A stretch of 36,893 nucleotides of DNA, from positions 1-36,893 of the forward strand of contig NZ_JAAGMD010000789.1 of the NCBI RefSeq assembly GCF_010548465.1, in the 5' to 3' direction. The position numbers and the translations under genes are program-made. Of the stretch, positions 1,034-3,471 are shown piece after piece; within the stretch, counting starts at the first letter, position 1; every line of letters begins with the position of its first letter. The notes under the pieces were generated by a model. The model was not told the origin of the DNA. It saw nothing but the letters and a program-made list of their open reading frames with translations, and made no database searches. Origin of the DNA: Streptomyces sp. SID14436. Lineage in GTDB: Bacteria; Actinomycetota; Actinomycetes; Streptomycetales; Streptomycetaceae.

Positions 1034-1201
1034 CGCCGCCGCACGCCGGGGTGGACGCCGGGCGCGCCGGGCACGCGGGAGGTCCGGTGCGCGGGCGCCA
1101 CGCCGGCCGGGTCCCCCGTCGGCGGGACGCGGGTTCGCCCGCACGGCCCACCGGGATGACCCGTTCGCGCGACTGCGATCGCGCGGGCGGGTGGGCGTTT
1201 C

Positions 1202-1207
1202 TAGCGT
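1202..1207 (+). promoter_or_regulatory. -10 box TAGCGT for the anchored protein gene
   Basis: TAGCGT fits the TANNNT -10 pattern of HrdB-type promoters and lies about 75 bases before the ATG at 1282. The nine bases TCTAGCGTT are repeated exactly before the sortase gene (2752-2760), which suggests shared control. No good -35 box is visible at the usual spacing. Confidence 0.45.
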
Positions 1208-1281
1208 TTCGCCCATCGAGGCGCATTCCTGCCCCGCGCGGAACAGGTCCGCGGCTGCACCTCGGGACCCGGAGGATCCAC

Positions 1282-1818
1282 ATGCACGCGATACGCGTCG
1301 CTTCCGCCGCCCTGCTGAGTGCCGGCGCCCTCGCCCTGGCGGCCGCGCCGGTGGCCGTCGCCGGCGACGTCACCCCGTTCGGGTTCGACGTCGAGCCCGA
1401 GATCGTCGACCCGGGTGACACCGTGACCCTGCGCGTGGACCGCGCGGGGGGCGGCTGCAAGGGCCACGCCAAGGTCTCCTCACCGGTGTTCGACACGGTC
1501 ACCATCCCGCCGAAGAAGTCCAAGGCCACGGCTGTGGTCGACTGGGACGCCCGGCCGGGAGCCGTGTACCAGGTGGCGTTCACCTGCGACGGCGTCACCG
1601 GCACCGCGCCGCTGACCATCGCCTCCGACCGGCCGGTGCCGCTGCCCACCCCCGTGCCGGTGCAGCCGGAGCACCCCAAGGGTGTGCACGCCGGCGAGGG
1701 CGGCAGCTTCGCCGGTCTCGACGCGGGCCGGCTGGGCCTCGGCGCGCTGATCGTCGCGGGCGCCCTGGGCGCCGCGTACCGCCACTACCGCCGTCCGTCC
1801 CCCGAGGACGGCGCCTGA
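1282..1818 (+). CDS. Small secreted protein with C-terminal membrane anchor
   Basis: The 178-residue product has a Sec signal peptide (about 1-27, cleavage near AVA-GD), a compact Ig-like beta region with two cysteines (C59, C102) that could form a disulfide, a Pro/Val linker (about 116-132), then GVHAGEGGS at 134-142, a hydrophobic helix (about 151-166) and a basic tail YRHYRRP. The order box, helix, positive tail is that of a sortase substrate, but no LPXTG or LAXTG motif is present. The start follows GGAGGA at 1271-1276. A protein of the same plan is encoded convergently at 1959-2477, and a sortase gene follows at 2812, so this is probably a surface protein attached or processed by that sortase. 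Its binding partner or function is unknown. Confidence 0.85.
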   Translation: MHAIRVASAALLSAGALALAAAPVAVAGDVTPFGFDVEPEIVDPGDTVTLRVDRAGGGCKGHAKVSSPVFDTVTIPPKKSKATAVVDWDARPGAVYQVAFTCDGVTGTAPLTIASDRPVPLPTPVPVQPEHPKGVHAGEGGSFAGLDAGRLGLGALIVAGALGAAYRHYRRPSPEDGA

Positions 1819-1875
1819 GGGCGGGGCGCGCGGGACGGCGGGCGGCGCGCCCATGATGTCCGGACGCCCCCCACA

Positions 1876-1925
1876 CCGCAGCCCCTCGCCCCGGAGCCGG
1901 TGGCGTCCGGGGCGAGGGGCTGCGG
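1876..1925. terminator. Bidirectional terminator, perfect 20-bp stem
   Basis: Arms 1876-1895 and 1906-1925 are perfect reverse complements (outer end CCGCAGCCCC, inner end CCCCGGA) around a 10-base loop. It lies between the convergent genes ending at 1818 and 1959 and can serve both. Confidence 0.9.
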
Positions 1926-1958
1926 TCACGTGCGAGCGGGCCGTCCGAGGGGAGGGAC

Positions 1959-2477
1959 TCAGATCCGCTTCTCGGCGCGGCGGCGCATCCAGAACACGCC
2001 GCCGGCGGCGACCGCCGCGGCGACGAGTCCGCCGCCGATGGCCATGTCGGTCGGGGTGGCACCGGTGGTGCTGCTGCCGCCGAGGCCGCCGCGCACCCCG
2101 CCGATGACGGTGAAGGCGTCCGAGCGGGTCAGGGTCCGCCCGGAGCAGTGGACGGTGATGTCGTACGGGCCGGGCCGCGCGTCGGAGTTGATGGTGGCGG
2201 TCCCCCGGGAGGTGCCGCGCTGGCCGCTGACCGGCGTCAGGTTGGTGCGCGGGAAGGCGTGGGACGTGGCGTGGCCGCCGTTGGGGCAGCCGTCGACGGT
2301 GATGGCCAGCTGGCCGCCGCGGGCGATGACACTGGGCATGGCGGTGATGTTGGACGGGCTGGGGACGCCGCCGCCGTCCGAGACGGTCACCGGGGCGTCG
2401 GCGACCGCGACCGGGGCGCCGAGTCCGAGGACGGCGACCGCCGCTCCGGCGGCCGCCAGGGCACGTGAGTTGCGCAT
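1959..2477 (-). CDS. Small secreted protein with C-terminal membrane anchor (paralogous plan)
   Basis: The 172-residue product has a signal peptide (about 1-27, AVA-DA), a beta-rich domain with two cysteines (C64, C111), the box GVRGGLGGS at 127-135, a hydrophobic helix (about 145-163) and the tail WMRRRAEKRI. Its layout, two-cysteine core and Gly-Ser box match the protein at 1282, although overall identity looks low. The start ATG at 2477 is preceded by GGAGG on the reverse strand. It is divergent from the sortase gene, with about 330 bases between them. I infer a sortase-linked surface protein; no enzymatic motif is visible. Confidence 0.85.
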   Translation of the reverse strand: MRNSRALAAAGAAVAVLGLGAPVAVADAPVTVSDGGGVPSPSNITAMPSVIARGGQLAITVDGCPNGGHATSHAFPRTNLTPVSGQRGTSRGTATINSDARPGPYDITVHCSGRTLTRSDAFTVIGGVRGGLGGSSTTGATPTDMAIGGGLVAAAVAAGGVFWMRRRAEKRI

Positions 2478-2811
2478 GTGATCCTCCGCGGAAGGCGCCC
2501 CGGGTCCCGTACCCGGTTGGATCGGCGAGAAAGCGCCTCCCGGAAAAACCCTCAGTTGCCGTGCGGGCAGCCGCATTTCGGGAATGGTCCGTCCCGGTGA
2601 GGGAAATTCCCGCGCCCGCTCCCAAGATCGTTCATCACCGCAGGTCACATGCCGCGGGGGCGCCCTCGTGCGGCGCTTCCCCGGATGGCGCACCGGTGGC
2701 GGCCGGGGGCACCCGTTCGGCGCCGTCCCGTCGCCGGTCGTGCCCGCGGAATCTAGCGTTCAGACATGCGCCGGTGACGCGGCGACGGCCGCGTCGAGAG
2801 GGGAAGAGCGA
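2478..2811. promoter_or_regulatory. Divergent promoter region between surface protein and sortase genes
   Basis: No gene is supported here. On the plus strand TAGCGT at 2754-2759, within TCTAGCGTT, is a likely -10 box for the sortase and repeats the sequence before the gene at 1282. The end near 2515-2640 is somewhat less GC-rich and should carry the leftward promoter, but no clear -35/-10 pair stands out. Confidence 0.5.
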
Positions 2812-3471
2812 ATGTCTGCTTTCGAAGCGGCCGCGGCCGAGGAGGAGGCACGGCGGAAGAAGCGCGCGCCGTGGGGCGTGATAGCGCTGGTGCTGCTCAC
2901 CGGCCTGGCGCTGATCCGCAACGGCTCGGGCGAGTTCGACGTGGGTCCGCCGCAGCCGGCCAGCGCGGCGGCGGCCGACACCCGGGCGCCGGTGACCGGT
3001 GGCGCCCAGCCGCTGCCGTACGCGCTGCCGGACCGGGTCCGGATCCCCGCCATCCAGGTCGACGCGCCGGTCATGCCGGTGGGGCTGGACGCGGAGGGCT
3101 GGGTGGACGCGCCGCCGGCCGAGGACCCCAACCTGGCGGGCTGGTTCACCGGCGCCGTCACCCCCGGTGAGAAGGGCACCGCGGTCGTCGTCGGCCACGT
3201 CGACAACCAGCAGGGGCCCGCCGTGTTCTACGGGCTCGGCGCCATGAAGAAGGGCAACCGCGTCGAGATCACCCGCAAGGACGGCAGGACGGCCGTGTTC
3301 GAGGTGTACGGCATCGAGGTCTTCTCGAAGCACGACTTCCCCGGCGACCGGGTCTACGCCTCCAAGGGCGCCGCGGAACTGCGGGTCATCACCTGCGGCG
3401 GCGGCTTCTCCCAGCAGGACGGCTACGACGGGAACGTGGTGGCCTTCGCCCGCCTGGCCGAGGTCCGCTGA
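2812..3471 (+). CDS. Class F-like sortase
   Basis: This 219-residue protein has a short cytoplasmic N-terminus (RRKKR), one membrane helix (about 21-36) and an extracellular sortase fold. The catalytic histidine is H129 in VVVGHVDN, the catalytic cysteine is C195 in VITCGGGF, and R214 in VAFARL is the likely catalytic arginine. The single N-terminal helix, small size and HVDN/TCGG signatures fit actinobacterial class F sortases better than the class E housekeeping type. It would join surface proteins to the wall by cleavage and transpeptidation. Its neighbours at 1282 and 1959 are the obvious candidate substrates. The ATG follows GGGAAGAG at 2800-2807. It is convergent with the deacetylase gene. 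Confidence 0.9.
   Translation: MSAFEAAAAEEEARRKKRAPWGVIALVLLTGLALIRNGSGEFDVGPPQPASAAAADTRAPVTGGAQPLPYALPDRVRIPAIQVDAPVMPVGLDAEGWVDAPPAEDPNLAGWFTGAVTPGEKGTAVVVGHVDNQQGPAVFYGLGAMKKGNRVEITRKDGRTAVFEVYGIEVFSKHDFPGDRVYASKGAAELRVITCGGGFSQQDGYDGNVVAFARLAEVR

Follow-up and report, generated by a model that had tools for sequence, protein, structure and literature searches.

How a class F sortase recognises its substrates is the question raised by a locus of Streptomyces sp. SID14436, in which the proteins encoded beside such an enzyme carry neither LPXTG nor LAXTG. The locus lies in a window of 36,893 nucleotides (the whole stretch of DNA analysed here, contig NZ_JAAGMD010000789.1) and holds the genes of the class F sortase SrtF and of two predicted substrates, termed protein A and protein B (Table 1). 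A preliminary description of this DNA had proposed that a GV-x-x-G-x-GGS box, shared by both proteins before the membrane helix, is a sorting signal of class F sortases. Our analysis indicates that the box is real and conserved and, judged from sequence comparison, that it is very likely the sorting signal of SrtF, representing the local version of a pentapeptide that resembles LPXTG. We propose, with a probability of roughly 0.8, that protein A, protein B and SrtF form a dedicated sorting module, in which SrtF would read and cut the box and would join both proteins to the wall. This proposal draws on the anatomy of the two proteins, the conservation of their boxes, the co-location of such boxes with class F sortases across the class, their near absence from genomes without these enzymes, and box variants that follow the sortase clades.

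GVHAGEGGS in protein A and GVRGGLGGS in protein B were located at residues 134-142 and 127-135, respectively, where the preliminary description had placed them, both before the C-terminal helix. Protein A consists of a signal peptide, a small ectodomain, a variable Pro-rich linker, the box, a short helix and a basic tail, and protein B of a signal peptide, an Ig-like beta sandwich (residues 44-125 of the model), the box region, a helix and a basic tail. In both proteins, the scan found the box followed by a hydrophobic stretch and an Arg-rich tail, and with signal peptides recognised by eye, both display the canonical substrate layout (signal peptide, C-terminal box, helix, basic tail); the hydrophobic stretch of protein A is short and fails a stricter helix filter. 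The two ectodomains are distantly homologous (BLASTP E 4e-7), so that the box common to both could be inherited rather than convergent. No family match was found for either protein in a Pfam scan, nor for protein A in an NCBIfam scan. In the AlphaFold model of protein B, the ectodomain is a confident beta sandwich and the helix is present, while the box region is modelled with low confidence and is thus probably unstructured, as expected of an exposed signal. Foldseek matches of protein B were weak, the best being cyclodextrinase chains (E 7e-4), followed by Ig-domain chains from 1.7e-3.

Conservation was examined in 80 orthologous loci, all from Streptomyces, in which orthologues were chosen by BLAST with the box ignored, yielding 59 of protein A (after exclusion of the "protein A" of locus L053, an antisense reading) and 78 of protein B. 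All 59 protein A orthologues carry GV.[AG]G.GG[STA], with Ser as the last residue in 31; GV..G.GGS is exact in 70 of the 78 protein B orthologues and xxGGxGG is present in all 78. The boxes therefore persist in homologues, and the mean fraction of the most frequent residue is 0.90 within the protein A box versus 0.52 in the preceding 30 residues (the variable linker), and 0.92 versus 0.75 for protein B. A protein B alignment was built from 56 of 58 selected rows plus the window. The absence of LPXTG/LAXTG from proteins A and B was verified and extends to the last 70 residues of the orthologues (0/59 and 0/78). Protein B homologues (E <= 1e-17) occur in 35 of 61 genomes of the genus, without exception no more than 2 kb from a window-type SrtF, a type that was hand-picked in this comparison (the best match per genome down to E 1e-79, plus the partial match in G322) and is present in 45 of the 61. 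There were also 32 weaker B-like matches (E 1e-6 to 1e-17), 16 of them near a window-type sortase.

To see the signal beyond this locus, we collected a diverse set of 80 class F sortase neighbourhoods from other genera and sought open reading frames (ORFs) ending in a helix and a basic tail. An unsupervised motif search in 67 same-strand anchored ORFs within 300 bp (59 loci) returned [TAVM]-P-x-G-G-[VPA]-x-T-G, with a log-likelihood ratio of 412.6 against 144-164 in 10 shuffles (60 restarts each) and with instances such as MPEGGVETG, IPDGAPQTG, IPAGHPETG, IPPGFPQTG and VPSSVPAGD. At a score of at least 3, the motif model recognised 65 of the 67 ORFs in-sample versus 3 of 59 controls, the latter being 49 anchored ORFs taken from random regions plus 10 that adjoin sortases on the opposite strand. 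In a two-fold test by locus, the figures were 56/67 versus 2 and 3 of 59 controls at the same threshold, and 47/67 versus 1-2 of 59 at a score of at least 5. A pentapeptide of LPXTG type, framed as P-x-G-[GAHS]-[VPAM]-x-[TAG]-G, thus emerges as the general signal; compared with LPXTG, Leu is replaced by Gly, Ala, His or Phe and Pro by Val, Pro or Ala. Protein A scores 12.6 in this model (HPKGVHAGE).

A looser regular expression, R2, matched 59 of 77 near ORFs in the diverse set versus 6 of 70 far or control ORFs, figures that are not blind since R2 was devised after part of these data had been seen; three of the six are further box proteins in sortase loci. Applied unchanged to new class F loci of the window's genus, R2 found a matching anchored ORF within 1.5 kb in 38 of 40 loci but in only 1 of 14 farther ORFs, with the distance widened from 300 bp, both strands counted and the types of paralogue in the source genome already seen. 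Window-type loci make up eleven of the 40 (8 assigned from the tree and 3 from a B-like neighbour); when they are left out, the figure is 27 of 29. These ORF scans relied on codon-position GC and helix filters, which drop real cases such as protein A of the window, or the boxes of L120 and L144, seen only by eye.

Two simpler candidates for the signal were rejected. Plain LPXTG/LAXTG is absent from the adjacent anchored ORFs of both sets (0/77 in the diverse set and 0/52 in the same-genus set). The exact GV-x-x-G-x-GGS form occurs in 1 of the 77 ORFs from other genera (in L119, overlapping a GVATG box) and in 10 of the 52 same-genus ORFs, all ten in window-type loci, and is thus rare outside the window's sortase clade. 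Of the original proposal, it therefore holds that proteins encoded next to class F sortases are marked by the box, which their homologues retain, whereas its Gly-Ser form is not general, an LPXTG-like pentapeptide taking its place. Nor would such a box be wholly new, as had been supposed, because NCBIfam already names its core motif in the 44-residue model NF058571 (GVDTG_CTERM, "GVDTG sorting domain"), although the window variants fall outside it: protein A has no match and protein B reaches 24.9 bits (28 bits in the genome scan), below the cut-off of 29.

With this existing model as an independent probe, we scanned 296 genomes of the class, scoring at most the best 12 (class F scan) and 23 (NF058571 scan) candidates per genome, so that all counts from these scans are among the matches listed. 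Class F sortases are widespread, occurring in 175 of the 296 genomes (E <= 1e-10), with 2-9 paralogues per cell in those genomes of the genus that have any. NF058571 is found above its cut-off in 73 of the 175 genomes with a class F sortase versus 1 of the 121 without (Fisher p 3e-19), and at E <= 1e-3 in 109/175 versus 9/121 (p 1e-23). In the lone exceptional genome, G266, the match is confined to positions 11-44, the second part of the model. Moreover, a class F sortase is no more than 3 kb away from 92 of 96 above-cut-off matches (65 assigned by script and 27 read by eye, one of them adjoining a broken sortase). The expected co-occurrence of the box family with class F sortase genes is thus borne out, and the family is far from equally frequent where these genes are lacking. 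Since the tag recurs in the gene beside a class F sortase across many actinobacteria, it is probably a signal read by class F sortases. In genome G134, which has seven GVDTG matches, a class F sortase next to a strong GVDTG protein reads as two pieces that overlap, one of which contains an in-frame TGA (G134:C1:5695722-5696137). The GVDTG proteins at G252:C24:80353 and G111:C1:8190304 have no class F sortase listed nearby and are candidate remote substrates.

The variants of the box also follow the phylogeny of the enzymes. On a tree built from 99 class F sortases, the clade of the window's enzyme (9 rows, support 100/99) is accompanied only by boxes with Ala or Gly at the fourth position (GVHAG, GVRGG). 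Boxes with Thr there (SVKTG, HVKTG and similar) are the only ones that go with the sister clade (20 rows, 99/92). Box labels required 22 changes on the tree versus 33.7 when shuffled, with 0 of 200 shuffles as low; the window's labels were assigned by hand and the others by regular expression, several of them out of register (e.g. L112, L124, L128, L151 and L182). Among ten box proteins scanned with NF058571, three were above the cut-off, three below (SVKTG, HVDGG and APQTG) and four without a match (GMHTG, two GVPAG and GVPSG). In a deep 14-row clade of class F-like sortases (L167-L183), the neighbours mostly carry GVPAG, SVPAG or GVPSG boxes, and the three that were scanned were not matched by NF058571. 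Two boxes in one protein were seen in 5 of 39 strict-core ORFs, four of them in one sortase clade; a substrate-like protein of the window's own genome (C650; L022 5213-6037) has an internal box (PEGGMHTGGGAL) and a second one before the helix.

The source genome encodes three further class F sortases, two of which adjoin Thr-type boxes (SVKTG and GMHTG); no box was found near the third, which sits at a contig end. Across paralogues, the variants SVKTG, HVKTG, GMHTG, AVPAG and GVHAG/GVRGG were observed. As a tentative idea, which we hold to be somewhat less probable than its opposite, class F sortases may be private sorting lines, each paralogue reading the box variant of its own neighbour with Asn in place of the catalytic Arg, and the additional, internal box of one clade could offer another site of cutting or linkage.

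The catalytic His and Cys of SrtF are invariant in all 209 rows of the class F alignment, and Asn208, conserved in 206 of 209, aligns opposite the catalytic Arg of class E sortases (hhalign, probability 88%). We do not count this substitution as a discovery, as Asn in place of the catalytic Arg in class F is already in print (PMC6998099). Arg191, four residues N-terminal of Cys195, is present in 186 of 209 rows and is a candidate for a relocated catalytic Arg. The AlphaFold model of SrtF has a sortase fold (mean pLDDT 87.5), with 7f87 as the best structural match (Z 16.3, rmsd 2.1 over 129 residues). A phmmer search with the single sequence against solved structures found nothing at 0.001, and a 91-row profile, built from 91 of 97 selected sequences (window included), found sortases.

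The genes are ordered as a bestrophin-like gene, protein A, protein B, the sortase and a polysaccharide deacetylase gene, with proteins A and B convergent and protein B and the sortase divergent. The identical -10 region TCTAGCGTT that had been noticed before protein A and the sortase is indeed present, at 1200-1208 and 2752-2760, and proved to be the end of a longer two-part element, in which CCGTTCG lies equally far upstream at both sites. The exact spaced pair (N30-40) has two matches in the 6.8 Mb assembly, both at this locus. A relaxed form (N33-35, TAGCGT) was found in 78 of the 80 orthologous loci; with exact N34 spacing, 72 sites precede the sortase and another 15 lie farther upstream, towards protein A. 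About 14 bp further on, a second and weaker half-site resembling CCGTTCGC was seen by eye and suggests an activator; a scan for sigma-70 promoters found none. That protein A and the sortase share this element supports the view that enzyme and substrate are expressed together. The inverted repeat between proteins A and B is probably a two-way terminator.

Table 1. Features of the class F sortase locus, with positions in the window
Feature	Position	Strand	Basis or remark
Bipartite promoter-like element CCGTTCG-N34-TAGCGTT, upstream of protein A	1161..1208	+	Exact copy
Protein A, 178 aa	1282..1818	+	ORF; predicted SrtF substrate
Protein A box GVHAG/EGGS, residues 134-142	1681..1707	+	His-Pro-Lys just before
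Perfect inverted repeat, two 21-nt arms and 10-nt loop	1875..1926	.	Between the convergent ends of A and B
Protein B, 172 aa	1959..2477	-	ORF; predicted SrtF substrate
Protein B box GVRGG/LGGS, residues 127-135	2073..2099	-	Conserved in orthologues
Bipartite promoter-like element CCGTTCG-N34-TAGCGTT, upstream of sortase	2713..2760	+	Exact copy
Class F sortase SrtF	2812..3471	+	NF033748, 209.9 bits, cut-off 166
Catalytic His129 and Cys195 codons; Asn208 codon	3196-3198, 3394-3396; 3433-3435	+	Class F alignment

In the mechanism that we propose, proteins A and B would be exported and then retained by the C-terminal helix and basic tail. SrtF would recognise the pentapeptide just before the helix, G-V-x-A-G in protein A and G-V-x-G-G in protein B, which elsewhere mostly reads G-V-x-T-G, preceded at a distance of a few residues by Pro. 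Cleavage, via Cys195, would separate residue 4 from the Gly at position 5, so that the predicted cut falls between Ala and Gly in protein A and between Gly and Gly in protein B. The new C-terminus would be joined to a cell-wall precursor, and the downstream G-x-G-G may serve as a flexible stem that is left on the discarded tail.

Several observations weigh against the proposed module. Co-location is functional linkage and does not show cleavage. Near copies contribute to the match between sortase clade and box, and linkage alone could keep the two together; because linked genes are co-inherited, this match need not mean recognition. The motif model transfers only partly to the window's genus, where 23 of 39 same-strand adjacent ORFs score at least 5 (versus 2 of 13 opposite-strand and 0 of 14 far ORFs) and the missed ORFs include the GVRGG, GVHAG and AVPAG types. 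Protein B, without Pro and Thr, scores -0.9 and is the weakest part of the case. By our filters, 15 of the 80 diverse loci have no adjacent anchored ORF and 55 have an R2-bearing one. NF058571 is lacking above its cut-off in 102 of the 175 class-F-bearing genomes, and hence covers only part of the class, and four above-cut-off matches have no class F sortase in their vicinity (G252:C24, G111:C1, G069:C194 at a contig edge, and G266:C4). Finally, an Actinoplanes missouriensis mutant from which four class F genes had been deleted showed no visible phenotype (PMC13251363).

Some of these points would also fit other explanations. The box might be a mere flexible Gly-rich stem, with proteins A and B permanently tail-anchored in the membrane and the sortase acting on other proteins. 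Stems rich in Gly/Ser are generally plausible in front of helices, a C-terminal anchor alone suffices to account for the helix and tail, and the Thr-less, low-scoring box of protein B would be unremarkable as a stem; yet the consensus is ordered (Pro, Gly, Val/Pro/Ala, Thr, Gly) rather than merely rich in Gly, separating neighbours from controls in the two-fold test, and the box family is nearly absent from genomes without a class F sortase, which makes this explanation unlikely. The same tripartite layout of Gly-rich box, helix and Arg-rich tail is shared with GlyGly-CTERM proteins, for which a rhomboid-type enzyme has been proposed, so that another protease could cut the box while the sortase neighbourhood is incidental. 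We consider this most improbable given that 92 of 96 above-cut-off matches are found close to a class F sortase; in addition, no GlyGly-CTERM match was reported for protein A or B in the NCBIfam scan, and rhomboid neighbours were not searched for.

Anchoring of both proteins by a class E sortase, with the class F enzyme nearly inactive because Asn replaces its Arg, would accord with that replacement, with the class E sortases that the same genome encodes and with the silent deletion in A. missouriensis. It is, in our judgement, very unlikely, as L[PA]xTG is found in none of the 137 orthologues, the box adjoins class F genes, and the His and Cys are without exception in the class F alignment. 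The class E sortases of Streptomyces read LAXTG (PMC5148588). The class F boxes resemble that signal in being a C-terminal pentapeptide that ends in Gly and is followed by a helix and a basic tail, but differ from it in Gly/Ser/His/Ala for Leu, Val/Pro/Ala/Met for Ala, a Pro-x-Gly lead and a following Gly-x-Gly-Gly.

Among known systems, the NF058571 domain is the closest to the boxes of the window, sitting like them before a helix and a basic tail and beside class F sortases. The class F enzyme of Cutibacterium (Propionibacterium) acnes is reportedly called a housekeeping sortase in the title of a 2019 study by Di Girolamo, with LPXTG said to be on its substrates; it belongs to the same class, but the enzymes described here look tied to neighbouring genes. 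For the C. acnes enzyme, 19 substrates have been predicted (PMC8200545). In A. missouriensis, AMIS_11010 and AMIS_36440 have a signal peptide, a helix and a basic tail, are encoded beside class F sortases and lack a canonical pentapeptide; they were set aside by the authors, who regard them as possible substrates of SrtF1 and SrtF4 (PMC13251363). In layout and class F neighbour they are like proteins A and B, and no motif is proposed for them in the available text of that report; the motif described here would explain why they were passed over. A search of the full-text literature for GVDTG returned apparently nothing on sorting, although most subscription papers lie outside such a search, so that absence from print is not shown.

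As late as 2026, the physiological roles of class F sortases were described as unknown (PMC13251363). The proteins described here escape substrate searches based on LPXTG-type pentapeptides, and a usable consensus together with a rule to look next door makes class F substrates experimentally addressable. If it is true that the paralogues are orthogonal, they might serve as new ligation tools that cut before Gly after Thr, Ala or Gly.

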